From: an uncultured Rhodospirillales bacterium
GTDB lineage: Bacteria; Pseudomonadota; Alphaproteobacteria; Acetobacterales; Acetobacteraceae
Reading direction: 5' to 3'
DNA length: 43,311 nt
Assembly: GCA_903928895.1 (NCBI GenBank)
Contig: CAIYSR010000059.1
Location: 1-43,311, forward strand
Shown: positions 8,602 through 43,311 of the stretch, one piece after another
Layout: each line of letters opens with the position of its first letter
Position numbering within the stretch: position 1 is the stretch's first letter
Program-made: the position numbers and the translations under genes
Notes under the pieces: generated by a model
Told to the model about the DNA's origin: nothing
Seen by the model: the letters and a program-made list of their open reading frames with translations, nothing else
Database searches by the model: none

Positions 8602-8866
8602 ACCCGTTCCATTCAGCGGTTGGATCAGCGACCTTCAGTTGAAAACACCGGTCTTGCTTGCGCCGCAGGCCATCAATCCTGCGATCTAGGGACGATCTTG
8701 CCTGTGAAGAGAGAATTGATGGGCTTCGCCCGCCTCCGCACGCGAGATCGCTGGCTTCCAACTGAAGGTCAGTGATCCGGCCGCTTAAATAAGTGGGGTC
8801 CAGGGGCCTACGGCCCTTGGCCGGCGGAGCCTGTCTTGTTCGCTTCGCCTTCGCCCGATTGCCCTG
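8534..8866. repeat. R-family inverted-repeat element (R1 left arm, R2 right arm)
   Basis: The left arm (8534-8643) and right arm (8734-8866) are imperfect reverse complements. Shared landmarks include CAGGGCAATCGGG, GGCTCCGCCGGC, GGGCCC-type runs and ACCTTCAGTTG. About 90 bases of spacer separate them. The right arm, read in reverse, is nearly identical over its full 133 bases to 43179-43311, so this is an interspersed repeat and not a private hairpin. The left arm overlaps the 3' end of the ABC ATPase gene. The non-coding stretch 8602-8943 consists almost entirely of this element plus the leader of the next gene. Confidence 0.8.
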
Positions 8867-8943
8867 GTGGAGCTGGGGATGTGATTTCCGCCGTGGCAAT
8901 CCTGCTGTAGGCTCGCCGCATCCAACCCCGAAGGACACCCGCC

Positions 8944-9408
8944 ATGAGCGACGTCAAGCTTGCGCCCAACCTGCCGCAATGGATGCTGGATCATGTCGCC
9001 CGGTATCTGTCGAGCGGCGGCACCGACGGGCACATGTACACGATCAAGAACCCCAACGTGCCCGAGATGTCCGTCCCGTCGCTGCTGCTGACCACGACGG
9101 GGCGCAAGTCGGGCGAGAAATATCTGTTCCCGCTGTTCTACGGGCAGACCGGGAGCAGCTACTTCATCATCGCCTCCAAGGGCGGGGCGCCGGAGCATCC
9201 GGGCTGGTATCGCAACATCCTCGCCAACCCCGAGGTCGAACTTCAGGTCGGCACCGCCAAGCTGCACGCCCGTGCCCGCACCGCCGAGGGCGCCGAGCGT
9301 GCCGCGCTGTGGGAAAAGGCAGTGGTGATCTGGCCGCCGTTCGCGGACTACCAGCGCAAGGCCACCGGCCGCGAGATCCCGGTGGTGGTGCTCGATCCGA
9401 TGGGCTGA
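8944..9408 (+). CDS. Nitroreductase/deazaflavin-dependent (Ddn/DUF385-like) small oxidoreductase
   Basis: The 154-residue product shows the split beta-barrel pattern of the Ddn family: LLLTTTGRKSGEKYLFPLFY near residues 51-70, then FIIASKGGAPEHPGWYRNIL and a VELQVG strand. In actinobacteria this family uses coenzyme F420; here the cofactor is unknown and FMN or another deazaflavin is possible. The start ATG follows AAGGACACCCGCC. The TGA stop (9406-9408) is also the first three bases of a 221-bp palindromic element. It could act on a quinone or enone intermediate, but nothing nearby proves that. Confidence 0.75.
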   Translation: MSDVKLAPNLPQWMLDHVARYLSSGGTDGHMYTIKNPNVPEMSVPSLLLTTTGRKSGEKYLFPLFYGQTGSSYFIIASKGGAPEHPGWYRNILANPEVELQVGTAKLHARARTAEGAERAALWEKAVVIWPPFADYQRKATGREIPVVVLDPMG

Positions 9409-9626
9409 TACCGAGCCTGCTCGCGAGTGGGCTTCACGGATCGCAGAGAAGGAGCAGAGGAAGGAAGCGTTTCTTTTTTTGAAAAAAAAGAAACAAAAAA
9501 ACTTCATCCCGGGCTTCGCCGTGAATGAAACGACCGACTCCAAGGGATGAAAGTTTTTTGCTTCTTTTTTTCAAAAAAGAAGCGCTTCGATCCTGGAAGC
9601 GTCGGTCTTTTTCCGGGTCGGTACGA
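9406..9626. repeat. MITE-like element with terminal inverted repeats and paired U units (B)
   Basis: The element begins TGATACCGAGCC and ends GGGTCGGTACGA, which are 12-bp imperfect terminal inverted repeats. Inside are a reversed U unit (9464-9510) and a forward U unit (9544-9588), joined by a spacer with the conserved GACTCCAAGG. The inner arms, ACTTCATCCC and GGGATGAAAG flanked by an A-tract and a T-tract, have the layout of a bidirectional intrinsic terminator. The element aligns along its whole length with 18333-18560, including the purine-rich GAGAAGGAGCAG segment outside the hairpins. No transposase is encoded. Confidence 0.8.
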
Positions 9627-9681
9627 GCCGCTTGTCTCGCCCTCGCCGCGGCCGCATTCTGCGGCGAGGGAGAGCGCGCCG

Positions 9682-11634
9682 ATGAGCGAAACCGATATCG
9701 CCTGGACCCCCTCGGCGGAGGTGGTGGCGGCGGCGAACTGGACCGATTTCGTCCGCTATTGCGGCCTGCCCGATTATGCGGCGCTGGCGGCGAAATCCTC
9801 GGCCGAGCCGGAATGGTACTGGCGCGCGCTGGCGGGCTGGCTGGGCTTTCGCTTCCGCGCCACGCCGAACCGGATGATGGACCTCACCGACGGCATCGCC
9901 TATCCACGCTGGTGCACCGGCGGGACCGCCAATCTCTATGACAGCACGGTCGGCGCCACGGTGGAGCAGGCGCCGGAGCGGGCGGCGGTGATCTGGGAGG
10001 GCGAGGACGGCAGACGGCGGAGCCTGAGCTACGCGGACCTCGACCGTGACGCGGCGGCCTGCGCCGCCGGGCTCGACCGGCTCGGGCTGCGGCCGGGCGA
10101 TGTGGTGGCGTTCTATCTGCCGATGCTGCCGGAAACGGTGGTGGCATTCATGGCCTGCCTGCGGCTCGGCCTCATCACGCTGCCGCTGTTCTCGGGCTTC
10201 GGCGCCGAGGCGGTGGCGCAACGGCTGGAGCTGAGCGGCGCGCGCGCGGTGATCACGGCGGACGCCACGCGGCGGCGCGGGCAGACGGTGCCGATGAAGC
10301 AGGTGATCGACGCGGCGCTGCGCGGCAACGAAGAGGTGCAGCATGTCATCGTGCTGCGCGACCGAGGCGCCGAGGTGGCGATGGCGGCGCCGCGCGATAT
10401 CTGGTGGCACGACCTTGCCGCGGGACCGGTTGCGCCGCCCCGTGAGCTGGACGCCGAGCGGCCGGCGCTGCTGATGTACACTTCCGGCACCACCGGGCGG
10501 CCGAAGGGCGCGCTGCACACGCATTGCGGCCTCGGCCTCAAGCTCGGCCAGGATGTGCGCCTGACCCTCGACCTCAAGCCCGGCGAGCGTTTGTTGTGGC
10601 CGACCGATTTCGGCTGGTTCGGCGGCACCGTGACCATCCTCGGCTGCCTGCTCGCCGGCGCCACGCTGGTGATCGCCGAGGGGGCACCGACGTTTCCGGA
10701 CGCGGGCCGGATGTGGCGGATGATCGAGGACTACCGCGTCACCCATTTCGGCACGGCGCCGACGCTGGCGCGCATGCTGCGGCGCGAGGCCGATGGCCTG
10801 CGCGGCGGCTATGATCTCGCCTCGGTGCGCGCGGTGCCGTCAAGTGGCGAGGCCTGGGACCGGGAGAGCTGGAACTGGGTGATGCACCAGGTGTTCGGCG
10901 GACGGGCACCGATCCTGAATTTCTCGGGCGGCACCGAGATGTGCGCGATTGTCGCCTCCAACATCCTGTTCGCGCAGAAGCCGGGCAGTTTCAACGGGCC
11001 GGTGCCGGGCACCGGCGGCGATATCGTGGCGCTTGACGGCACTTCGGTCGCGGTCGGCGAAATCGGCGAGCTGGTGATGCGCGAGGCCTGCATCGGCACC
11101 ACGCGGGGGCTGTGGCGCGACGCGCAGCGTTACCTGGAGAGCTACTGGAGCCTGATTCCGGGCATGTGGGTGCAGGGCGATCTCGCCTCGCGCGATGCCG
11201 ACGGGTTCTGGTTCCTGCATGGCCGTTCCGACGACACCATGAAGATCGCGGGCAAGCGCATCGGGCCGACCGAGTTCGAGGATGTGCTGCTGGCGACCGG
11301 CACGGTGAGTGAGGCGGCGGTGGTGGGCATCCCCGATGCCGTCACCGGCTCGGCCGTCGTGGTCGTGGCGGTGCCCGCCCCTGGCCAGCCCGGCGACGCG
11401 GCGCAGGGGCGGATGCTGGCCGATGCGCTGGCCCAGGCGCTCGGCCGCGCGTTCCGGCCCAAGCGTGTGATCTTCGTTGCCGATCTGCCGAAGACGCGCT
11501 CGATGAAGGTGATGCGCCGGGTGGTGCGCACGACGCTGGCGGGCCAGCCCGGCGGCGATCTGTCGAGCCTGGTCAATCCCGAATCAGTACAGGAACTCGC
11601 CCGCAACGCGGCGGCACAGGACGTGACATCATGA
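9682..11634 (+). CDS. AMP-forming acyl-CoA synthetase (acetyl-CoA synthetase-like), paralogue 1
   Basis: The 650-residue enzyme has an N-terminal ACAS-type domain and the ATP-binding loop YTSGTTGRPKG near residue 265. It also has the GWFGG block and the hinge/C-terminal domain with GRSDDTMKIAGKRIGP and KTRSMKVMRR, in which Lys609 is the expected catalytic and acetylatable lysine. It activates a carboxylic acid to its CoA thioester via an acyl-adenylate. ATG 9682 follows GAGGGAGAG at 8 bases. An in-frame ATG at 9547 lies inside repeat B and is not a credible start. The stop overlaps the enoyl-CoA hydratase start (ATGA). A paralogue lies at 16403; the substrate is unknown. Confidence 0.87.
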   Translation: MSETDIAWTPSAEVVAAANWTDFVRYCGLPDYAALAAKSSAEPEWYWRALAGWLGFRFRATPNRMMDLTDGIAYPRWCTGGTANLYDSTVGATVEQAPERAAVIWEGEDGRRRSLSYADLDRDAAACAAGLDRLGLRPGDVVAFYLPMLPETVVAFMACLRLGLITLPLFSGFGAEAVAQRLELSGARAVITADATRRRGQTVPMKQVIDAALRGNEEVQHVIVLRDRGAEVAMAAPRDIWWHDLAAGPVAPPRELDAERPALLMYTSGTTGRPKGALHTHCGLGLKLGQDVRLTLDLKPGERLLWPTDFGWFGGTVTILGCLLAGATLVIAEGAPTFPDAGRMWRMIEDYRVTHFGTAPTLARMLRREADGLRGGYDLASVRAVPSSGEAWDRESWNWVMHQVFGGRAPILNFSGGTEMCAIVASNILFAQKPGSFNGPVPGTGGDIVALDGTSVAVGEIGELVMREACIGTTRGLWRDAQRYLESYWSLIPGMWVQGDLASRDADGFWFLHGRSDDTMKIAGKRIGPTEFEDVLLATGTVSEAAVVGIPDAVTGSAVVVVAVPAPGQPGDAAQGRMLADALAQALGRAFRPKRVIFVADLPKTRSMKVMRRVVRTTLAGQPGGDLSSLVNPESVQELARNAAAQDVTS

Positions 11635-12437
11635 GCAGCCCCTACGACACCTATCAGCGCCTGCGCTTCAACCGGCCGCACCCGCATGTGCTGCGGGTGA
11701 CGATGGACAACGGCAAAATGAACACCGCGGATGCGGTGATGCATGCCGAGCTGGTGCGGGTGTGGCGCGACATCGATGCCGATGACAGCGTCAACTGCGC
11801 GATCATCACCGGCGCCGGCACGACCTTCTCCGCCGGCGGGGATTTCGCCATGGTGCAGGAGATCACCGAGAGTTTCGAGGCCCGCACCCGGGTGTGGCGG
11901 GAAGCGCGGGACATGGTCTACAACATCATCAACTGCCGCAAGCCGGTGGTCAGCGCGATGCGCGGCGTGGCGGTGGGCGCGGGGCTGGTGTGCGGCATCC
12001 TGGCCGATGTTTCGATCGCCACGCCGGAGTGCCGCATCACCGATGGCCATACCAGGCTCGGGGTGGCGGCGGGGGATCATGCGGCGATCATCTGGCCGCT
12101 GCTGTGCGGCATGGCCAAGGCGAAATACTACCTGCTGACCTGCGATGTGCTCGACGGCGCCGAAGCCGAGCGGATCGGGCTGCTGTCGATGACGGCGCCG
12201 GATGCGGAGCTCGATGGCAAGGCGGTGGCGGTGGCGACGAAGCTGGCCGAAGGGGCGCAGAGCGCGATCCGCTGGACCAAGTATTCGCTCAACAACTGGC
12301 TGCGCCAGGCCGGGCCGAGCTTCGATGCGTCGCTGGCGATGGAGTTCATGGGCTTCACCGGACCGGAGGTGAAGGAAGGCCTGGAGTCGCACCGCGAGAA
12401 GCGCAGGCCTTCGTTTCCGCCTACGACGGAAGTATAG
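11631..12437 (+). CDS. Enoyl-CoA hydratase/isomerase family protein
   Basis: The 268-residue crotonase-fold protein has the oxyanion-hole segment GAGTTFSAGGDFAM near residues 62-75 and the second block AVGAGLVCGILADVSIATPECRI near residues 113-135. Its start overlaps the synthetase stop by 4 bases, so the CoA ester made by that enzyme is the likely substrate pool. In place of the usual Pro-Glu-rich catalytic loop it has LGVAAGDHAAIIWPLL. The acid/base pair of classical hydratases is therefore not obvious, and it may be an isomerase or hydrolase variant. The stop lies 10 bases before repeat C. Confidence 0.82.
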   Translation: MSSPYDTYQRLRFNRPHPHVLRVTMDNGKMNTADAVMHAELVRVWRDIDADDSVNCAIITGAGTTFSAGGDFAMVQEITESFEARTRVWREARDMVYNIINCRKPVVSAMRGVAVGAGLVCGILADVSIATPECRITDGHTRLGVAAGDHAAIIWPLLCGMAKAKYYLLTCDVLDGAEAERIGLLSMTAPDAELDGKAVAVATKLAEGAQSAIRWTKYSLNNWLRQAGPSFDASLAMEFMGFTGPEVKEGLESHREKRRPSFPPTTEV

Positions 12438-12447
12438 TTTCAGTTAA

Positions 12448-12576
12448 GGGAAGCGTTTCTTTTTTTTGAAAAAAAAGAAACAAAAAAAATTTATCCGTGG
12501 CTTCCCTGTAGATGAGACCACAGACTCCAACGGGTAGAAGTTTTTTGCTTCTTTTTTTCAAAAAAGAAGCACTTCC
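12448..12576. repeat. Inverted pair of U units between convergent genes (C)
   Basis: A reversed U unit starts at 12448 (GGAAGCGTTTC, T-run, A-run, AAAC, A-tract) and a forward unit ends at 12576. The spacer carries the conserved CAGACTCCAACGGG. The outer terminal repeats present in B and D are missing, so this is a core-only copy. It fills the gap between the stop codons of two converging genes and ends one base before the SDR stop codon. The inner stem with A- and T-tracts would suit a bidirectional terminator. Confidence 0.75.
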
Positions 12577-12577
12577 T

Positions 12578-13360
12578 TCAGAACGCTTTGCGCCGGTTGG
12601 CCATGCCGCCATCGACGGTGACGATGGTGCCGCTGGTGTAGCCGGACAGGTCGCTGGCGAGGAAGGTGGCGAGGGCGGCGATTTCGTCGACATCGCCGGC
12701 GCGGCCGAACGGCATACCGGCGAATGCTTCACGCCAGCGTTCGCCGTCGCCATGGGCGGCCACGGCGCGGCCGCGCATCAGGGTTTCCAGGCGTTCGGTC
12801 TGGATCGGGCCAGGATTGATGCCGACCACGCGCAGCCCGTCGGCGGGGGCGGCGCCGCCGAGGGCGCGGGTGAAGGCCATCAGGGCGGCGTTGCCGGTGC
12901 TGCCGGCGATGTAGGCGGCGTCGAGGCTTTCGCCGGCGGCGCCGATGATGTTGACGATCACGCCGCGGCGGCGGGCGCGCATCAGGGCGTAGAAGCGGCG
13001 GGCCATGTTGGTGTAGCCGAACACCTTGAGGTCCCACGCCGCGCGCCAACGGGCTTCGTCGATATCGTCGAGGGTGCCGCCGGGAATGGCGCCGGCGTTG
13101 TTGACGAGGATGTCGATGTCGGGGAAGTCGCGGGCGAGGGCATCGACGTTGGCGCTGTCGGCGAGGTCGGCGGCGCGGGTGACGACGCCGACATTGTGGG
13201 CGGCGCGCAGCGTGGCGGCGGCGGATTCCAGTTCGGTCGCGGTGCGCGCGACGAGAATGACATCGCAGCCCTCGCTCGCCAGGCGCTTCGCGCAGGCGAG
13301 GCCGATGCCCTTGGAGGCACCGGTGACGAGGGCGCGGCGGCCGGCGAGACCGAGATCCAT
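12578..13360 (-). CDS. Short-chain dehydrogenase/reductase family protein with atypical active site
   Basis: The 260-residue Rossmann protein has the cofactor motif TGASKGIG (13-20), NNAG (87-90), and the C-terminal TSGTIVTVDGG typical of classical SDRs. The catalytic region reads VNIIGAAGESLDAAYIAGSTGNAALMAF. The normal YxxxK pair is not present: Asn157 occupies the usual lysine place, and the usual serine is Gly/Ala. It probably binds NAD(P)H but may not catalyse a standard reaction. The ATG overlaps the TGA of the upstream binding-protein gene (TGATG), so these two are coupled. Confidence 0.82.
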   Translation of the reverse strand: MDLGLAGRRALVTGASKGIGLACAKRLASEGCDVILVARTATELESAAATLRAAHNVGVVTRAADLADSANVDALARDFPDIDILVNNAGAIPGGTLDDIDEARWRAAWDLKVFGYTNMARRFYALMRARRRGVIVNIIGAAGESLDAAYIAGSTGNAALMAFTRALGGAAPADGLRVVGINPGPIQTERLETLMRGRAVAAHGDGERWREAFAGMPFGRAGDVDEIAALATFLASDLSGYTSGTIVTVDGGMANRRKAF

Positions 13361-14592
13361 CAGAACCGCACCGTGCACTTGCTCTGCTCGATGGCGCGGA
13401 ACGCCTCCTTGGCGGGCACCGCGCCGACGACCTCGTAGTAGTCCCACGGGTAGCGCTGCTCGGACGGGGCCTTGATGCGCGCGGTCAGCATGTCGTGGAT
13501 CAGCCGGCCGTTGGGCAGCAGGCGGGCGTTGCGGGCGAAGAAATCCTCGAACGGGTTGTCCCGGATATGGGCGCGTACGGCTTCGGCCTTGGTGCTTCCG
13601 GTGGCTTTGACGGCCTTGAGATACTGGGTCATCGCCGAATAGACGCCGGCCTGGAACATGGTCGGCTGCTTCTGGCGAGTGGGGAAGAAGCGCTTGGCGA
13701 AGGCGCGGGTCTGCTCGTCGCGGTCCCAGTAGAAGGCGGTGACGAAGTTGAGGTTCTGCAGGGCTTCGAGGCCGATGGCATGCACGTCGGTGATGACGGT
13801 GAACATGGTGCCGATCTGCTGGCCGCGCTGGACGATGCCGAATTCGCGGACCTGTTTGAGCGCGTTGATGAGGTCGGTGCCGCCGGCGGTGAACAGGATG
13901 AACTTGGCACCGGAAGCCTGGGCCTGGAGCAGATAGGAGGAGTAGTCGGTGGCGCCGAGCGGATGGGCGACCGAGCCCAGCACCTTGCCGCCGGCCGCCG
14001 TCACCATCTCCTGCGCCAGGGTGGCCATGGTTTTGCCGGCGACATAGTCCTGGTGGATGATGAACCAGGTGTCGAGGCCGCGGCGGAGTTGCAGCAGGGC
14101 GCTGGAGCGGGCGACGGAATAGATGTCCCAGGTCCAGGAGATACCGTAGCCGTTGCAGTCCTCCTCGTTCAGCCGGTCGACGATGGCGGTGCTGAAGATG
14201 CAGAGCTTGCGCGACTTGCCGGCCACGGTGTTGACGGCGAGCGCGACGGAGGAGGTCGGGCAGTCGAAGATCGCGTCCACGCCCTGGTTGTCGTACCAGT
14301 CGGCGGCGAGGCTGGCGCCGACATCGGGCTTGTTGAGATGGTCGGCGGAGACCAGTTGCACGCGCTCGGCCATGCCCGCATCGGCGATCGCCATGCGCGC
14401 AGCCTCGACCGAGCCCTGGCCGGCGTAGTCGGCGTAGACCGAGCTCATGTCGGTCAGCACGCCGAGCTTGATCGGCGCGGACTGGGCCGAGACGATGGAC
14501 GGGGCGGCGAGGCCGGCGAGCGAGGTGGCGAGCACGGTGCGGCGGGCGAGGCCGGCGCGATGCGCAAGACTGGGGCCGGGGGCGCTGGTCAT
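13360..14592 (-). CDS. LivK-type ABC transporter substrate-binding protein, orphan
   Basis: The 410-residue protein belongs to the branched-chain-amino-acid/aromatic-acid binding family (periplasmic binding fold I). An RR-containing signal sequence spans residues 1-36, ending SIVSAQ. KLGVLTDMSSVYADYAGQGSVEAARMAI follows, with later the GATDYSSYLLQAQASGAKFILFT domain-2 strand. Family members often bind amino acids, benzoates or short carboxylates. ATG 14592 lies 7 bases after AGGAGG. No membrane or ATPase partner is adjacent; its only partner is the overlapping SDR gene. Divergence from the SDR/HIBADH/synthetase operon suggests the bound ligand feeds that pathway (inference). Confidence 0.85.
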   Translation of the reverse strand: MTSAPGPSLAHRAGLARRTVLATSLAGLAAPSIVSAQSAPIKLGVLTDMSSVYADYAGQGSVEAARMAIADAGMAERVQLVSADHLNKPDVGASLAADWYDNQGVDAIFDCPTSSVALAVNTVAGKSRKLCIFSTAIVDRLNEEDCNGYGISWTWDIYSVARSSALLQLRRGLDTWFIIHQDYVAGKTMATLAQEMVTAAGGKVLGSVAHPLGATDYSSYLLQAQASGAKFILFTAGGTDLINALKQVREFGIVQRGQQIGTMFTVITDVHAIGLEALQNLNFVTAFYWDRDEQTRAFAKRFFPTRQKQPTMFQAGVYSAMTQYLKAVKATGSTKAEAVRAHIRDNPFEDFFARNARLLPNGRLIHDMLTARIKAPSEQRYPWDYYEVVGAVPAKEAFRAIEQSKCTVRF

Positions 14593-14737
14593 GGAAGGTC
14601 CTCCTGGTTGCACGCCGTGATGCGCGCGCTTGACGCGATCCTACGGGGAGGGGGCGGGCGCCAGCAATCCCCGCGGCTGCTTGCCTCGCCCGGGCGGTGC
14701 CCCGATAGTCCGGGTCAACGACGGAGGAACAAGATCC

Positions 14738-15493
14738 ATGGCACGGCTCGACGGCAAGGTCGCACTCATCACCGGCGCGGGGACCGGCATCGGGCGCTGC
14801 ACGGCGGAATTGTTTGCGCGCGAGGGCGCCCAGGTGGTGATCGCGGAGATCGACACGCCGAGCGGCGAGGAGACCGCGCATCGCATCTCCGCCGCCGGGG
14901 GCGAGGCGATTTTCATCCAGACCGATGTCGGCGAGCCCGACAGCATCGCGGCCGCGATCGCGCAGACGGTGCGGCACTACGGGCGGCTCAATGTGCTGCA
15001 CAACAATGCCGGCGGTTCGACCAGCGTGGATTCGAATGTGATCGACGCGCCGCTCGAGGAATTCTGGCGTGCCATCCGGCTCGATCTGTTCGGCACTTTT
15101 CTTGGTTGCCGCTTCGGCATTCCGGAGCTGATCAAGGCCGGCGGCGGCTCGGTGATCAACATGGCCTCGGTGGTGGCGCTGATGGGCTTCCCCGGGCGCG
15201 ATTGTTATACCGCAGCCAAGGGCGGGGTGGTGGCACTGACCCGCTCGCTGGCGGTGGAATTCGCGCCGAAGAAGGTGCGGGTCAACGCGATCGCGCCGAC
15301 CATCACGCTGACGGAGCGGGTACGCGGCATCCTCGACGGCAACCCGGCGATGCGGGCGCTGGCGGAGACGCATCTGCTCGGGCTCGGCGAGCCGATGGAT
15401 ATGGCGCATGTCGCGCTGTATCTCGCCTCCGATGAATCGCGGATCACGACCGGCATCATCCTGCCCGTCGACAGCGGCCTGGTGACGGCATGA
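14738..15493 (+). CDS. Short-chain dehydrogenase/reductase (classical)
   Basis: This is a 251-residue classical SDR with TGAGTGIG (12-19), NNAG, and a complete catalytic set. The Ser of MASVVAL is followed by YTAAK, giving Tyr and Lys of YxxxK. The C-terminus has TTGIILPVDSG. It should oxidise or reduce a hydroxyl/keto group with NAD(P). The ATG at 14738 follows ACGGAGG at 10 bases. It overlaps the next gene by 4 bases (ATGA) and forms an operon with the 3-hydroxyacid dehydrogenase-like and acyl-CoA synthetase genes. Confidence 0.87.
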   Translation: MARLDGKVALITGAGTGIGRCTAELFAREGAQVVIAEIDTPSGEETAHRISAAGGEAIFIQTDVGEPDSIAAAIAQTVRHYGRLNVLHNNAGGSTSVDSNVIDAPLEEFWRAIRLDLFGTFLGCRFGIPELIKAGGGSVINMASVVALMGFPGRDCYTAAKGGVVALTRSLAVEFAPKKVRVNAIAPTITLTERVRGILDGNPAMRALAETHLLGLGEPMDMAHVALYLASDESRITTGIILPVDSGLVTA

Positions 15494-16401
15494 GCGCGCC
15501 CGGCATCACCCGGATCGGCTTTCTCGGTCTCGGCCAGATGGGCGCGCCGATGGCCGAGCGGCTGTTCGCGGCGGATACCGAACTGCATGTGTTCGATCCG
15601 CGGCCCGAGGCAATGGCGCCCTTCGTCGCGCGCGGCGCCATCGCCTGCGGCTCGCCGGCCGAGGTGGCGGATGCGGCGAGCATCGTGCTGGCCTGCCTGC
15701 CCAGCGCCGCGATCAGCGCCGAAGCCGCGCTCGGGCCGCGCGGGGTGATCCATGGCAGCGCGATCCGCATCCATGCCGAGATGTCCACCATCGGCCGCTC
15801 CGGCGCCGAACGCATCGCCGCGGGGCTGGCGGTGCGCGGGATCGCGATGGTCGATACCCCGATCAGCGGCGGGCCGCCGGGGGCGCGTGCGGGCACGCTG
15901 GCGCTGATGATGGCTGGCGCGCCCGAGGCGGTGGCGGCGCTGCGGCCGTTCCTGGAGCGGCTGGGCCGCAACCTCTTTGTCCTGGGCGAGACGCCGGGAC
16001 AGGGGCAGGTGATGAAGCTGGTCAACAACGTGCTGGTCGCAGCCAACATAGCCACCACCTTCGAGGCGATGGCGATGGGGGCCAAGGCCGGGCTCGATGC
16101 CGATGCGATGACCGTCGTGGTCAATGCCGGGACGGGGCGCAGCTTTGTCACCTCGGACATGATGCCGCGCGTGCTTGATCGCAGCTTCGGCTTCGGCGCC
16201 ACCATCGCGGTGATGGACAAGGACATGACGCTCGGGCTGGAGGAGGCGCGCGCCCTGGGGGTACCGATGTGGACGATCGAGCAGGCCGCCCGGGTGTGGC
16301 GCTTCGCCGCCAGCCATGGTGCGGCGGGGGAGGACATCTCGGAGCTGGCGAAGCTGCTGGAGGGCTGGGCCGGCACCGAAATCCGCGGCCGGGCGGGCTG
16401 A
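15490..16401 (+). CDS. NAD(P)-dependent beta-hydroxyacid dehydrogenase (3-hydroxyisobutyrate dehydrogenase family)
   Basis: The 303-residue protein starts with the N-terminal Rossmann motif GFLGLGQMGAPMAERL (residues 8-23). It contains the substrate-binding block DTPISGGPPGARAGTL near residue 120 and the catalytic helix GQVMKLVNN near residues 172-180, with Lys as expected catalytic base. The family oxidises 3-hydroxyisobutyrate, tartronate semialdehyde and similar beta-hydroxy acids. The start overlaps the SDR stop and the stop is 1 base before the synthetase ATG, so all three genes are in one operon. Confidence 0.85.
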   Translation: MSAPGITRIGFLGLGQMGAPMAERLFAADTELHVFDPRPEAMAPFVARGAIACGSPAEVADAASIVLACLPSAAISAEAALGPRGVIHGSAIRIHAEMSTIGRSGAERIAAGLAVRGIAMVDTPISGGPPGARAGTLALMMAGAPEAVAALRPFLERLGRNLFVLGETPGQGQVMKLVNNVLVAANIATTFEAMAMGAKAGLDADAMTVVVNAGTGRSFVTSDMMPRVLDRSFGFGATIAVMDKDMTLGLEEARALGVPMWTIEQAARVWRFAASHGAAGEDISELAKLLEGWAGTEIRGRAG

Positions 16402-16402
16402 T

Positions 16403-18313
16403 ATGGAAGCGGCCTGGACGCCGCCGCCGGCGCTGGTGGAGCGGGCCCAGGTGACCCGGCTAGCGCGCGAACTCGGCTGCGCCGATTTCGCCGCGCTCTC
16501 GCGCTTCTCGCACGCCGAGCCGGCGGCCTATTGGCGCCACCTGATGGGCTTCCTCGGCATCGCCTGGTCGCGCCCGCCCGAGGGCTACGTCGATCTCGCC
16601 GACGGTACGGCGTTCCCGAACTGGTTCCCCGGCGGTGAACTCAACTGGGTGGATACGGTACTGGCCTGGGGCCGCGATCCGGCGCGCCGCGACCGCCCCG
16701 CGGTGATCGGCGAGCGCGAGGATGGCAGGGTGGACAGCCTGACCTGGGCGGAGCTGGAGGACCGGGTGCTGCGCTTTGCCGCCGGGCTGCGGGCGCTCGG
16801 GCTCGGTCGGGGTGATCGCATCGGCCTGCTCATGGAGAACGGCATCGAGGCGACGGTTTCGTATCTTGGGATCTCGGCGCTGGGGGCGATCTGCGTGCCG
16901 CTGTTCAGCGGTTTCGGCGTCGATGCGATCCATTCGCGCCTGTCCGGCTGCGGCGCGGCGGCATTGATCGCCACGGCGGGGTTCCCCCGGCGCGGCCGCT
17001 TCATCGATATCGGCGCGCTGATCGCAGAGGTGCGGCCGGGGCTGCCGGACCTGCGTACGCTGATCGTCAAGGGGGGCGCGACGACGCCCGCCGACGCCGT
17101 CGCGTGGGAGGACGTCACCGCGCCGCCGGCGCCGGACCTGCCGGCACGGATGGGCGCCAATGATCCGATGATCGTGATCTATACCTCCGGCACCACCGGC
17201 AAGCCCAAGGGCGCGGTGCACACCCATGGCGGGTTTCCGCTCAAGATCGCCCATGACGCGGCGGTGCATTTCGACATCGCCCCGGATGACCGATTCTGCT
17301 GGCCCGCCGACATGGGCTGGATCGCGGGTTCGCTGATCCTGTGCAGCGCGCTGCTGCGCGGCGCCACCCTGGTTTGCTACGACGGAGCGCCCGATGTGCC
17401 GGATTGGGGGCGCATGAGCGGACTGATCGCGCGCCATCGGGTCACCCATTTCGGCGCCTCGCCGACGCTGATCCGCAGCATGGCGGCCAATCCGGCGCAG
17501 GCGCTGGCCGGCGATCGTTCGACTTTGCGCCTGCTGGTGACGGCCGGGGAGGGCATCGATCCGGAGCATTTCCTCTGGTACCAGCATCACATCGGCGGCG
17601 ACCGCTGCCCGGTGATCAACTACACCGGCGGCACCGAGGTTTCGGGCGGGCTGCTCGGCAATGTGCCGGTGCTGCCGATCGTGCCGGCCGGGTTCAATGC
17701 GGTCTCGCCCGGCGTGGCGGTGGATGTGCTCGACGACGATGGGCAGCCGGTGCGCGAGCGCCTCGGCGAGCTTGCCATCCTGGCGCCTTTCGTCGGCATG
17801 ACGCGGGCGTTCTGGCAGGACCCGGCGCGTTATCTGGAGACCTACTGGCAGCGCTTCCCCGGCATCTGGGTGCATGGCGACCTCGCGCTGCGGCGGGCGG
17901 ATGGCGTGTTTTTCCTGCGCGGGCGGTCCGACGACACGCTCAAGATCGCGGGCAAGCGGCTGGGCTCGGCCGAGGTCGAGGAGATCCTGCTGGAACTCCG
18001 GGGCGTCGAGGCCGCCGCCGCCATCGGCGTCGACGACGCGGCGAAGGGGCAGCGGCTGGTGGTGTTCATCATCCCGGCGCCGAACGCGCCTTCGGATCTC
18101 GCGGCTTTGGTGGTGCCGCACATGGACCAGCGGCTGGGGCGCGCGTTTCGGCCCTCGGCGGTGCATGTGGTGGCCGAGCTGCCACGGACGCGCAGCCAGA
18201 AGGTGATGCGCCGGGTGATCCGCAATCTCTACAACGGCCAGCCCGCCGGCGACCTGACGGCGCTGGACAACCCTTCCGCCCTGCCGCCGCTGGCTGAGCT
18301 CGGGAGAGGCTGA
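16403..18313 (+). CDS. AMP-forming acyl-CoA synthetase (acetyl-CoA synthetase-like), paralogue 2
   Basis: The 636-residue enzyme is colinear with the synthetase at 9682. It has YTSGTTGKPKG near residue 260, GWIAGSLILC, YTGGTEVSGG, GRSDDTLKIAGKRLGS and a final RTRSQKVMRR with Lys600 as predicted catalytic lysine. It differs from paralogue 1 in the acyl-pocket region (TGGTEVSGG against SGGTEMCAI), suggesting a different acid. It is the last gene of the SDR/HIBADH operon, 1 base after the preceding stop. Repeat D begins about 20 bases downstream. Confidence 0.87.
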   Translation: MEAAWTPPPALVERAQVTRLARELGCADFAALSRFSHAEPAAYWRHLMGFLGIAWSRPPEGYVDLADGTAFPNWFPGGELNWVDTVLAWGRDPARRDRPAVIGEREDGRVDSLTWAELEDRVLRFAAGLRALGLGRGDRIGLLMENGIEATVSYLGISALGAICVPLFSGFGVDAIHSRLSGCGAAALIATAGFPRRGRFIDIGALIAEVRPGLPDLRTLIVKGGATTPADAVAWEDVTAPPAPDLPARMGANDPMIVIYTSGTTGKPKGAVHTHGGFPLKIAHDAAVHFDIAPDDRFCWPADMGWIAGSLILCSALLRGATLVCYDGAPDVPDWGRMSGLIARHRVTHFGASPTLIRSMAANPAQALAGDRSTLRLLVTAGEGIDPEHFLWYQHHIGGDRCPVINYTGGTEVSGGLLGNVPVLPIVPAGFNAVSPGVAVDVLDDDGQPVRERLGELAILAPFVGMTRAFWQDPARYLETYWQRFPGIWVHGDLALRRADGVFFLRGRSDDTLKIAGKRLGSAEVEEILLELRGVEAAAAIGVDDAAKGQRLVVFIIPAPNAPSDLAALVVPHMDQRLGRAFRPSAVHVVAELPRTRSQKVMRRVIRNLYNGQPAGDLTALDNPSALPPLAELGRG

Positions 18314-18332
18314 AGTTGCCGGCGCCACCGGA

Positions 18333-18560
18333 TCATACCTACCCTGCTAAATGGTGACCTTTGCGGATCGAGGAGAAGGAACAGCAGGAAGGAAGTGTTT
18401 CTTTTTTTCGAAAAAAAAACAAAAAAACTTTATCATTGGCCTTTACAGAAATGGAAGGACAGACTCCAAGGAATGAAAGTTTTTTGCTTCTTTTTTTCAA
18501 AAAAGAAGCGCTTCCCTGCCCCGATCAATAAAGCGTCATTCTTTTCCGGGGTTGGTATCA
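18333..18560. repeat. MITE-like element with terminal inverted repeats and paired U units (D)
   Basis: The ends are TCATACCTACCC and GGGTTGGTATCA, matching those of element B. The reversed U unit is at 18390-18435 and the forward unit at 18470-18515, with CAGACTCCAAGG in the spacer. The segments outside the U pair (CGGATCG-GAGAAGGA on the left, AAGCGTC and TCTTTTCCGGGG on the right) also match element B. The last three bases on the plus strand (TCA) are the stop codon of hemW read on the minus strand. It lies between convergent genes. Confidence 0.8.
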
Positions 18561-19712
18561 GAGGACGAGGGCGGCGAGGAGGGAGTCGAGGCGTTTGCGG
18601 CCCTCGGGCGTGGCGGCGAGGCGGGTGTTGGTCTCGGTGAGATAGGCTTCGGACTTGGCCATGGCGAGGATTTCGGGGTCGATGGCGTCGTGCAATGGGG
18701 TGCCGGTTCGGGTTGCGAAGCGCGCGGGGTCGATGCCTTCGGTGAGGCGCAGGCCCATCAGCAGCATTTCGCGGGCGCGGTCGCGTTGGGAGACAGCGTC
18801 TTCGTGGGTGGTGCCGTGGCCGTCGCGTTCGACGCGTTCGGCCCAGGGTTCGGGGGCGCGGTGGCGGCGGGTGGCGAAGAGGGTGTGGTTCAAGGTGACG
18901 CGGCCGTGGGCGCCGGGGCCGATGCCGGCGTAGTCGCGGTAGCGCCAGTAGGCCAGGTTGTGGCGGCTTTCGGCGCCTGTGCTGGCGTAGTTGGAGACTT
19001 CGTAGGGGGCGAGGCCGAAGCGGTCGGCTTCCTCGGCGGTGGCGTCGTAGAGCGCGGCGGCGAGGTCGTCGTCGGGCAAGGTGAGTTCGCCGCGGCGGTG
19101 CATGGCTTCGTAGACGGTGCCGGGTTCGATGGTGAGCTGGTAGAGCGAGAGGTGGTCGGCGGCGAGCGTGAGGGCATCGCGGAGTTCGGCGCGCCAGGCC
19201 GGGAGGGTTTGGCCAGGGCGGGCGTAGATGAGGTCGAAGGACAGGCGGGGGAAGAGGGAGCGGGCGAGTTCGAGGGCGGCGATGGCTTGGGCGGCGGAGT
19301 GCTGGCGGCCGAGGCGGGTGAGGTCGGTGGCGTTGAGGGCCTGGATGCCCATGGAGATGCGGTTGACGCCGGCGTCGCGGAAGGCGTGGAGGCGGGCGAT
19401 TTCGACGGAGGTGGGGTTGGCTTCGAGGGTGATTTCGATGTCGTCGGTGGCGGCGAAGAGGCGTTTGGCGTCGGCGATGAGGGCGGCGACGGTGTCGGGG
19501 TTCATCAGACTCGGGGTGCCGCCGCCGAAGAAGATGGAGCCGAGGGGGCGGGACCCAAGACGGGCGGCTTCCCAGGCGAGTTCGCTCCGCAGCGCGGTGG
19601 CGAAGCGGGTCTGGTCGATGCGCTCGCGCACGTGGGAGTTGAAATCGCAGTACGGGCACTTGGCCAGGCAGAAGGGCCAGTGGATATAGAGGGCGATCGG
19701 TTCATCGGTCAT
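18558..19712 (-). CDS. hemW: Radical SAM heme chaperone HemW (oxygen-independent coproporphyrinogen oxidase-like)
   Basis: The 384-residue protein has the HemW-type iron-sulfur motif CLAKCPYC (Cys15, Cys19, Cys22), with Phe after the last Cys as is usual. GSIFFGGGTPSL near residue 58 and a SAM-binding barrel with NRISMGIQALN follow. HemW transfers haem to membrane-bound partners; many genomes still label it HemN. True HemN is longer and has an extra N-terminal segment absent here. The start is close to the divergent exporter gene. The TGA stop forms the outer end of repeat D. Confidence 0.9.
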   Translation of the reverse strand: MTDEPIALYIHWPFCLAKCPYCDFNSHVRERIDQTRFATALRSELAWEAARLGSRPLGSIFFGGGTPSLMNPDTVAALIADAKRLFAATDDIEITLEANPTSVEIARLHAFRDAGVNRISMGIQALNATDLTRLGRQHSAAQAIAALELARSLFPRLSFDLIYARPGQTLPAWRAELRDALTLAADHLSLYQLTIEPGTVYEAMHRRGELTLPDDDLAAALYDATAEEADRFGLAPYEVSNYASTGAESRHNLAYWRYRDYAGIGPGAHGRVTLNHTLFATRRHRAPEPWAERVERDGHGTTHEDAVSQRDRAREMLLMGLRLTEGIDPARFATRTGTPLHDAIDPEILAMAKSEAYLTETNTRLAATPEGRKRLDSLLAALVL

Positions 19713-19737
19713 GGCCTTCTATAGAGGATTTCGGGCG

Positions 19738-20361
19738 ATGCCGCCGACGTCGATGTTGGTTTCGGTTGCCGCGATGTGGCTGGTGGCCGTGGTGATCCCG
19801 GGGCCGAATTTTTTCGTGGTCGCGCGGATGGCGGCGTTGCGGTCGCGCCGCGCGGCGCTGGTGGTGGTGGGGGCGTTGGGGATCGGCAGCACGGTGTGGG
19901 GGTTGGCGGGGTTTTTCGGGGTGCATGCGCTGTTTGCGCTGGCGCCGCGGCTGTATGTGGCGTTGCGGCTGATCGGGGCGGGGTACCTGGTTTATATCGG
20001 CGTGCGGATCGTGTGGGGGAGTTTCGGGGCGCCGGCGGGAGAGGGCAGGGCACAGGATGGGGCGGCGTTTCGGCTGGGGTTGATCACGAGCCTGTCGAAC
20101 CCGAAATCGGCGATGCTGGTGGGGAGCCTGTTCACCGCGGTGATGCCGCCGGATGCGGCGGTTTCGGTGGGGCTGGTGACGGTGGCGGAGATGGTGGCGA
20201 TTTCGGTGGGGTGGTACGCGACGGTGGCGTGCGTGATTTCGGCGCGGCCGGTGGCATTGTTGTTCCAGCGCGGGCGGCGGTGGATCGACCGAGTGGCGGG
20301 GGTGATATTCGTGGGATTCGGGGTGCGGGTGGTGGCGGGGGTGGTGGGGGTGGTGGGGTAG
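19738..20361 (+). CDS. LysE/RhtB-family amino-acid exporter
   Basis: The 207-residue membrane protein has about six helices and the family segments VVIPGPNFFVVARMA near residues 18-32 and GLITSLSNPKSAMLVGSLF near residues 111-129. Such proteins export lysine, homoserine, threonine or related amino acids. The ATG at 19738 gives the normal family length; an earlier ATG at 19711 would overlap the hemW start. The C-terminus is an unusual Val/Gly run encoded by GTG/GGG repeats. It converges on the SGNH hydrolase gene with no spacer. Confidence 0.8.
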   Translation: MPPTSMLVSVAAMWLVAVVIPGPNFFVVARMAALRSRRAALVVVGALGIGSTVWGLAGFFGVHALFALAPRLYVALRLIGAGYLVYIGVRIVWGSFGAPAGEGRAQDGAAFRLGLITSLSNPKSAMLVGSLFTAVMPPDAAVSVGLVTVAEMVAISVGWYATVACVISARPVALLFQRGRRWIDRVAGVIFVGFGVRVVAGVVGVVG

Positions 20362-22622: not shown

Positions 22623-22706
22623 ATGGATGAAAGTTTTTTGGTTCTTTTTTTCAAAAAAGAACAGCACTCCCTTTTTGAAAAAAGGGAGCCAAAAACTTTT
22701 ATCCAT
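22623..22706. repeat. Inverted pair of U units in reversed arrangement (E), in a divergent promoter gap
   Basis: A forward U unit (ATGGATGAAAG, T-run, GGTTC, T-run, A-run, GAAC) is followed directly by a reversed unit ending CCAAAAACTTTTATCCAT. Outer arms ATGGAT/ATCCAT pair around two inner hairpins, giving a cruciform. This is the opposite order from copies B, C, D and F/G. It is also the only copy placed between divergent gene starts. Confidence 0.75.
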
Positions 22707-31595: not shown

Positions 31596-31864
31596 GGAAA
31601 GCGCTTCTTTTTTGGAAAAAAGAAGCAAAAAACTTCCATCCTTTTGCGCGGCTGGATCGGTGGCCTTCAGCTGTGCAGCCGTGATGTTCTGTGCGGGGAC
31701 GCGGCGAAGCCATCAATCCGTGCTTCCGGAGAGACGGTGCTGGGGAGATGAATGAATGCCTGCGGCGCAAAAGAAGTACGGCGGTCTTACCTGAAGGATC
31801 GCCAGCAAAGCGCGAACGGATAAAGTTTTTTTGCTTCTTTTTTTCCAAAAAAAGAAGCACTTCC
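31596..31864. repeat. Compound repeat: U units F and G enclosing a decayed R-family element
   Basis: The stretch 31545-31907 has no convincing gene. A reversed U unit is at 31596-31641 and a forward one at 31818-31864. The 176 bases between them start GGCTGGATCGGTGGCCTTCAG and carry GCCATCAATCC. They end with CTGAAGGATCGCCAGC, the reverse of a similar arm. These match landmarks of the R element at 8534-8866 (GGTTGGATCAGCGACCTTCAG, GCCATCAATCC), so this seems to be an older R copy sitting inside a U pair. The remainder is the leader of the alcohol dehydrogenase gene. Confidence 0.65.
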
Positions 31865-43163: not shown

Positions 43164-43178
43164 TCCGGCCCTCATGCC

Positions 43179-43311
43179 CAGGGCAATCGGGGGAAGGCGA
43201 AGCGAACAAGACAGGCTCCGCCGGCCAAGGGCCGTAGGCCCCTGGACCCCATTCATTTAAGCGGCCGGATCACTGACCTTCAGTTGGAAGCCCGCGATCT
43301 CGCGTGCGGAG
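43179..43311 (+). repeat. R-family repeat copy R3, continuing past the window end
   Basis: From CAGGGCAATCGGGGGAAGG to the last base this is nearly identical, over 133 bases, to the reverse complement of 8734-8866. It includes the segments GCGAACAAGACAGGCTCC, TTAAGCGGCCGGATCACTGA and GCGATCTCGCGTGCGGAG. It starts 15 bases after the stop of the helical-protein gene. The element is cut by the window end, so a second, inverted arm may lie just beyond. Confidence 0.88.

Follow-up and report, generated by a model that had tools for sequence, protein, structure and literature searches.

Transposon-type ends around a terminator-like core: a short inverted-repeat element found on stop codons in an Acetobacteraceae genome

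We analysed a 43,311-nucleotide contig of an uncultured Rhodospirillales bacterium (Acetobacteraceae; GenBank assembly GCA_903928895.1, contig CAIYSR010000059.1), hereafter the window, which carries two copies of a non-coding repeat element whose termini coincide with the stop codons of neighbouring genes. The repeat has two layers, a ~120-bp inner core of inverted AT-rich hairpin modules and a pair of outer arms. Taken as a whole, we consider it probable that the element combines IS630-type transposon ends, duplication of a TNA trinucleotide, a terminator-like cargo, and nearly scarless insertion into stop codons. The outer arms would be transposon ends like those on an insertion sequence (IS) of a related genus, one with an IS630-like transposase, and insertion would occur at TNA and duplicate it. 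Because TGA and TAA fit TNA on either strand, an insertion into a stop codon would regenerate the stop and leave it intact on the gene side. The cargo, the core of facing hairpins, would most likely be a bidirectional intrinsic terminator. Stop-codon insertion would then be close to scarless and add a terminator at the gene end, and such copies may be tolerated or kept.

Results

A two-layered repeat family

The genome of the window is designated G000 (5.57 Mb in 191 contigs), its contigs have C-numbers, four relatives of the same genus are G001–G004, and loci have L-numbers. An earlier note on this DNA, made from the sequence alone, had described two matching elements with 12-bp terminal inverted repeats. 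Both lie where it had placed them (Table 1) and are 77% identical to each other (BLAST, query 14–229 of 246). Their inverted repeats are real but imperfect in each copy (9/12 and 10/12 matching positions); only the termini of the family consensus, TGATACCAACCC...GGGTTGGTATCA, form a perfect inverted repeat.

When G000 was searched by BLAST with the element, the 40 places scored out of 399 candidates gave at least 83 matches, the weaker ones often being the same place on the opposite strand. An exact 23-mer from the right hairpin occurs 80 times in the 5.57 Mb, as against 0 occurrences of a reversed control. Given this number of matches and of exact 23-mers, the family is not a chance resemblance.

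We characterized the modules in a 795-kb sample of G000 comprising nine of the 191 contigs (that of the window and eight long ones). Genes were called with a model trained on 18 window open reading frames (ORFs) with Pfam matches; it misses short genes, for example a LysE-type gene at 19711–20361. Profile searching detected 90 modules (113/Mb), arranged as 26 heads-in pairs, 9 tail-to-tail pairs, and 20 single modules, so that close pairs are inverted in 35/35 cases and direct in 0/35. By location, 46/55 units are intergenic, 8 are called inside genes, and 1 is at a contig edge. Arms are present on only part of the module pairs. A full-length profile, run on a 1.10-Mb pool of G000 enriched for matching places, returned 192 non-overlapping matches, 53 of which exceed 100 bits. 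Among these 53 are 29 elements with at least one end at 9/12 or better (39 ends). Ten elements reach 9/12 or better at both ends; they are 221–234 bp long, non-coding, and TNATACCAACCC-like at either terminus, as is characteristic of a miniature inverted-repeat transposable element (MITE). The earlier description, of a mobile-element-like family that is non-coding and has inverted termini, is borne out.

Termini and target-site duplication

Read inward from the termini, both arms follow the pattern TNATACCAACCC-N10-TGAC (24 left and 13 right ends, one of the latter, on C88, looking spurious). An insertion at C43:1613–1836 could be compared with empty orthologous sites. Where G000 has TGA-element-TGA, both G003 and G004 have a single TGA, and in each relative the alignments of the left and right flanks share exactly 3 bp, with gaps further out on the right. 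At this insertion, therefore, the target is TNA, duplicated over 3 bp, and the empty sites of two relatives reveal a target-site duplication of the kind that MITEs leave.

The ends of other copies are consistent with this target. The middle base of TNA is directly repeated in 7/10 of the G000 elements whose two ends each score at least 9/12 (chance 0.29, p = 0.009), and in 10/15 when the limit is lowered to 8/12 (p = 0.006). It is also direct in 10/12 end pairs of other genera (chance 0.38, p = 0.002), which come from 20 stretches picked among the matches listed and include three similar copies in G076. TGA is the commonest end, accounting for 18/24 exact ends. Direct pairs take the forms TGA...TGA and TCA...TCA, and in other genera also TAA...TAA.

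Two mini elements with the same ends, at L362 (G022) and L364 (G008), have outer trinucleotides that are not direct repeats and so depart from the TNA duplication. A hairpin of 55 bp with TGATACCAACCC ends (L068 1501–1555, L061, L081, and others) also occurs in G000, either alone or within a 150–175-bp composite, and one copy adjoins an AT-hairpin core at C43:24028.

Coincidence with stop codons

In each of the two window elements, as the earlier note had reported, one terminus is the stop codon of the neighbouring gene. This coincidence extends beyond the two copies. Checking the distance from the termini of the profile matches to the nearest stop, we found that 15/39 scored ends are the exact stop codon of the incoming gene; these ends belong to 14/29 arm-bearing elements (48%), one of which, on C3, now reads TAG. 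By comparison, stops make up 400/2874 (13.9%) of non-coding TNA sites in the 795-kb sample, and the element frequency is well above this value (p = 1e-5; 12/27, p = 1e-4 without the two window copies). Stops account for 400/977 (40.9%) of TNA sites located within 60 bp after a stop, and relative to this 3'-proximal null the coincidence is not significant (p = 0.27; 0.43 without the window copies). The 795-kb sample alone gives 7/14 elements on a stop, with p = 0.0014 against all TNA sites and 0.33 against 3'-proximal ones, or 5/12 minus the window copies (p = 0.018 and 0.59). A scored end with an intact TNA is slightly likelier to be counted, which biases these counts towards stops.

The earlier note had raised the possibility that gene ends are targeted. 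A transposition machinery with specificity for stop codons or gene ends would account for the excess over non-coding TNA sites in general, and also for an element on C44 whose two ends are the stops of two convergent genes. This element (C44:12006–12239; L024, L070) has TGA...TCA ends, which simple TNA duplication does not explain. Dedicated targeting is nevertheless not needed, because a TNA preference combined with a position close after genes predicts 41%, near the observed 48%. In addition, the arm-less cores of relatives likewise lie close after stops, and the arm-bearing elements C129:19505 and C186 are at least 97 bp from the nearest called stop. We regard specific targeting as improbable; a 3-bp TNA duplication with retention of copies 3' of genes would yield approximately the frequency observed.

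We then compared orthologous genes. In the genes compared, stops predate the elements, since the orthologues, which lack an arm-bearing element, already stop at the same codon or within one codon of it. The hemW orthologues of G001–G004 have their stop at the same position (TGA in three, TAA in G004) with no element present. For the Ddn-like gene, G001 and G002 share the stop position and G003 stops one codon sooner, none of the three having an element there; in G004 the stop is one codon later and is directly followed by a core without recognisable arms. The stop of a C151 gene, whose C-terminus we take to be that of rpoD, is kept in G003, and a C12 gene stops at the same codon there, as TAG. 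For C3, the orthologous stop in G003 is immediately followed by a core that lacks recognisable arms.

These comparisons bear on a further alternative, in which TGA belongs to the terminal repeat, no target is duplicated, and genes truncated or extended by the element receive their stop from it. The prevalence of TGA ends and the palindromic TGA...TCA ends of the C44 and C141 elements would agree with it, as would 4/29 elements in which the called stop of the incoming gene lies 19–22 bp inside the element. The direct TGA...TGA, TCA...TCA, and TAA...TAA pairs argue the other way, and the single TGA at the empty C43 site and the element-free hemW orthologues contradict it. We consider this alternative quite improbable. 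The earlier suggestion that the elements supply the stop thus does not usually hold, failing for the hemW, Ddn-like, C43, C12, C151, and C3 genes; an element may occasionally do so, as in the four cases just mentioned.

The core as a candidate terminator

The 26 heads-in cores of the 795-kb sample fall mostly in convergent gaps (17/26), with 7 in tandem gaps, 1 in a divergent gap, and 1 called inside a gene. Convergent gaps constitute 89/675 of all gaps in the sample, so the cores are strongly enriched there (p = 1e-9), also when the window copies at 12452 and 18394 are left out (15/24, p = 2.5e-8). A second set consists of 40 stretches of G001–G004 that were fetched because they bear cores. 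Their 42 heads-in cores comprise 17 convergent, 23 tandem, 0 divergent, 1 inside a gene, and 1 at an edge; against 22/123 convergent gaps the enrichment remains (p = 3e-4), and the lack of divergent cores is not significant taken alone (p = 0.12). In this set, each of the 40 cores with two neighbours has a called stop no more than 40 bp away, and a few overlap the call by up to 16 bp.

Each strand of the core presents an A-tract, a stem, and a T-tract in that order. The predicted RNA fold of the element 1 core (9460–9595) has a free energy of –56.5 kcal/mol (z –7.6 versus shuffles), and that of the element 2 core (18388–18520) has a z of –3.8. Local hairpin stems covary, with pairs such as GCTTC/GAAGC, GGTTC/GAACC, and GTTTC/GAAAC. 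Stems were parsed in 150/177 modules and are 97% paired, whereas shuffles give at most 91% and 0/2000 reach the observed value. Pairing between the two modules also beats shuffles in the relatives (0/200; 62/68 parsed overall).

A tract-flanked stem that stands just after stops, chiefly in convergent gaps, has the layout and placement of a bidirectional intrinsic terminator. Because of the tract order on both strands and the position after genes, a bidirectional terminator is the best reading of the core, and a moderately probable one. The earlier idea that the elements supply a terminator is accordingly plausible, from a core so placed in five genomes, with termination activity itself predicted from sequence. 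A comparison of orthologous cores yielded 2/40 usable loci: at one, a core is present in both genomes (the stretch having been fetched for its core), and at the other the flanks lie apart in G000.

The main rival reading is that the core is a REP/REPIN-like repeat that serves not termination but, for instance, supercoiling, the binding of proteins, or the protection of mRNA 3' ends, and whose position reflects tolerance, as for REPs. Several features suit such a repeat: the short hairpin module occurs singly or only in inverted pairs, it has a conserved one-sided T6 head, and its local stems covary strongly while the inter-module stem in G000 is not conserved beyond chance. No Y1_Tnp/RAYT protein was detected in G000, however (0 matches to PF01797, with a positive control in 5/14 genomes), and a GTAG or CGTC head was not seen by eye. 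The strong preference of heads-in pairs for convergent gaps, and the A- and T-tracts on either side of the inner stem, like those of a bidirectional terminator, also favour the terminator reading. We judge the rival rather unlikely, and identification as a REP/RAYT system was rejected on the absence of PF01797.

The module could also be a DNA uptake sequence of the sort known from Neisseria and Haemophilus, where inverted copies form terminators. The modules described here are indeed short, conserved, and found as inverted pairs after genes. They number just ~113/Mb, however, are conserved over ~40 bp, and are mostly intergenic, and we consider this origin very improbable.

A candidate parent insertion sequence

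The earlier note knew of no named family with this structure, a statement now superseded in part, since the terminal repeats also bound an IS in another, related genus. In G074 we found a 1182-bp (1.18-kb) IS with the ends of the G000 elements and TAA on both sides. The outer arms end in TACCAACCC-N10-TGAC, as does this IS, and TGAC at positions 23–26 is common to both arms, to the G074 IS, and to mini elements of other genera. ORF A of the IS matches the NCBIfam IS630 transposase with 111 bits (cut-off 100), and ORF B falls just under it with 99 bits. The ORFs also match Pfam helix-turn-helix and DDE_3 families, the latter with 58 bits (cut-off 28.6), as expected of an IS630-type transposase. 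Transposition of the G000 elements would then depend on an IS630-like enzyme acting in trans.

Members of the IS630 family are known to target TA, which is duplicated on insertion. The G000 empty site has a 3-bp TNA instead, and the G074 element has TAA flanks. Because TNA departs from the TA target, we do not file the G000 element as a plain IS630 member. Two other parents were considered. Five G000 matches to DDE_Tnp_1 (PF01609) are broken or short, and these ends do not occur near them. An IS5/IS1031-type parent was dropped once the G074 IS proved IS630-like.

Distribution

The two layers differ in their range. A 64-bp query from the left arm matched G000 only, at 6 places, among 150 genomes of the family that include G001 and G003; G002 and G004 are not among the genomes listed in that search. 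With the whole element as query, at least 10/40 genomes match, G000 included. All of G001–G004 match over the core, without recognisable arms (alignments listed within 34–192 of 221). Elsewhere, among the matches listed, G005 and G008 have the core, G022 and G023 one module, and G028, of another family, a weak match. The exact heads-in pattern was present in 42 stretches of a named genome collection, solely on contigs labelled Acetobacteraceae, Rhodospirillales, Acidiphilium, or Asaia, a distribution that points to Acetobacteraceae as the source of the window. The exact 32-bp module also appears in 13 IMG/VR viral contig stretches (L336–L348), some with two or three copies.

Features of the window

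Table 1. Positions of the arm-bearing elements, cores, and modules in the window.
Feature	Position	Strand	Remarks
Arm-bearing element 1 (MITE-like), 221 bp	9406..9626	+	3' of Ddn-like gene; arms align with other copies, ends TNATACC...GGTATNA
TGA, stop of Ddn-like gene (8944–9408) and inferred left TNA target copy	9406..9408	+	right copy 9624–9626 now CGA
Core of element 1	9466..9587	.	two facing hairpin modules: 9469–9505 (–), 9550–9583 (+)
Arm-bearing element 2, 228 bp	18333..18560	+	in the gap between the convergent hemW and AMP-ligase genes; both ends read TCA, a direct TNA repeat
Stop of hemW (18558–19712), TGA on – strand, and right TNA repeat copy	18558..18560	–	reads TCA on +
Core of element 2	18394..18513	.	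modules 18400–18431 (–), 18476–18509 (+)
Arm-less core, convergent gap	12452..12573	.	between enoyl-CoA hydratase gene 11631–12437 and SDR gene (stop at 12578), whose stops are 14 and 4 bp away, respectively
Heads-in module pair with 176-bp spacer	31599..31861	.	spacer = part of another repeat family
Abutting tail-to-tail module pair	22625..22704	.	
Single module close to contig end	126..164	+	

The product of the Ddn-like gene is an F420H2-dependent quinone reductase (PF04075 match), and hemW was identified by its Radical_SAM and HemN_C domain matches. The opposite ends of the two elements, 9624–9626 (CGA) and 18333–18335 (TCA), are not stops of incoming genes. At gathering scores, the window had 0 Rfam matches. 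Two AMP-binding genes of the acyl-CoA synthetase type (9682–11634 and 16403–18313) each adjoin an arm-bearing element and are 72–73% similar at the DNA level along two stretches, of 231 and 102 nt. A 134-bp inverted repeat, 97% complementary, joins 8734–8867 with 43178–43311, and the contig end falls inside it. A second repeat family of ~150–170 bp, without AT hairpins, lies at 31641–31822 and 8618–8789 and also makes up the spacer between the two heads-in modules at 31599–31861. It has 14 profile matches in the sequence examined (one place double-counted, via L214), and one copy is located 3' of hemW in G004 (L206).

Discussion

Several results weigh against the account of transposon ends, TNA duplication, and terminator-like cargo that we favour. 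Only at C43 can an empty site be read up to the junction from both sides, and the genomes compared there belong to other species. Just 3/10 G000 elements (4/15 at 8/12 or better) have the same whole trinucleotide at both ends, 2/12 end pairs of other genera fail the direct TNA repeat, the C44 and C141 elements have palindromic ends instead of a direct repeat, and window element 1, with termini TGA...CGA, has no intact right TNA. The coincidence with stops, as noted, does not exceed the 3'-proximal null. On the side of the parent, the G074 transposase is split over two ORFs and is not an intact enzyme. An IS-sized pair of these ends was absent from 74 G000 places at up to one mismatch, and from the 1.10-Mb pool, in an assembly of 191 contigs where some ends fall at contig edges; the G074 transposase had no tblastn match in 1.10 of the 5.57 Mb. 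As for the core, the inter-module stem in G000 pairs no better within than between elements (194/200 shuffles as good), and the usual terminator scan gave no excess, with an uninformative 8 sites versus 5.9 ± 2.4 expected.

The element is probably a variant of known mini-transposons and not a new kind of thing. A more tentative extension of the favoured account is that of a mobile terminator cassette: a TNA-duplicating, IS630-like branch might have acquired the stereotyped bidirectional terminator native to the genus and disseminated it, with stop codons as ready-made scarless sites. If that were true, transcript ends would have been re-wired genome-wide with the recipient genes unharmed. The element joins two things that are usually separate, transposon-type ends with a duplication and a terminator-like repeat fixed after genes, and the TNA target rule offers a simple, testable reason why insertions into stop codons would be harmless. 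Should the core terminate transcription, terminators could pass from one gene to another by transposition, and the many natural copies, nearly identical to each other, would lend themselves to termination assays.

Among the open-licence PMC papers listed in our searches, we saw no description of this repeat family. As described there, the element nearest in behaviour is SPRITE of Streptococcus pneumoniae, a short AT-rich repeat that resembles a Rho-independent terminator; according to the passages available, it is significantly over-represented between convergent genes (15/30) and near gene 3' ends, and has only AAAA/TTTT ends with a duplication not established (PMC3049150). This likeness, in terminator-like form, convergent gaps, and gene 3' ends, is one of published description and not of sequence. 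Unlike SPRITE as described in those passages, the G000 element places inverted hairpin modules between long arms of transposon type, and comparison with an empty site reveals a 3-bp duplication. It resembles MITEs generally, as the review passages portray them, in being short and non-autonomous with inverted ends. Those passages of a review of prokaryotic MITEs call the formation of Rho-independent terminators by MITEs conceivable, citing SPRITE; they name no MITE on stop codons, and 'stop codon' occurs 0 times in the main text (PMC10969869).

RUP is a mini element of S. pneumoniae, as mentioned in the same part of the SPRITE paper (PMC3049150). With RUP and other IS630-derived mini elements the G000 element has in common its non-autonomy and terminal repeats like those of an IS630/Tc1-type IS. 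RUP is of IS630 origin and has TA as its target; the G000 element differs in its 3-bp TNA, its terminator-like cargo, and a candidate parent IS found only in another genus. Like REP, BIME, and REPIN sequences in the excerpts consulted, it is built of short palindromic modules outside genes that are single or paired in inverted orientation (35/35); unlike them, it is accompanied by no RAYT in G000, and the GTAG/CGTC tag was not seen. CGTC repeats are missing in Acetobacteraceae, according to the relevant passage (PMC3733652). MITEAba12 of Acinetobacter, in the portion of its description available, makes a 9-bp duplication, has no Rho-independent terminator predicted by its authors, and introduces, in one of its copies, a premature stop into a gene (PMC6382973). 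The G000 element is comparable to MITEAba12, as described in that portion, in being a probably IS-derived mini element with a target duplication, and differs in its 3-bp duplication and terminator-like core. What it adds over these known kinds is the combination of transposon-type ends and a 3-bp duplication around a terminator-like cargo, with the consequence that this has for stop codons.

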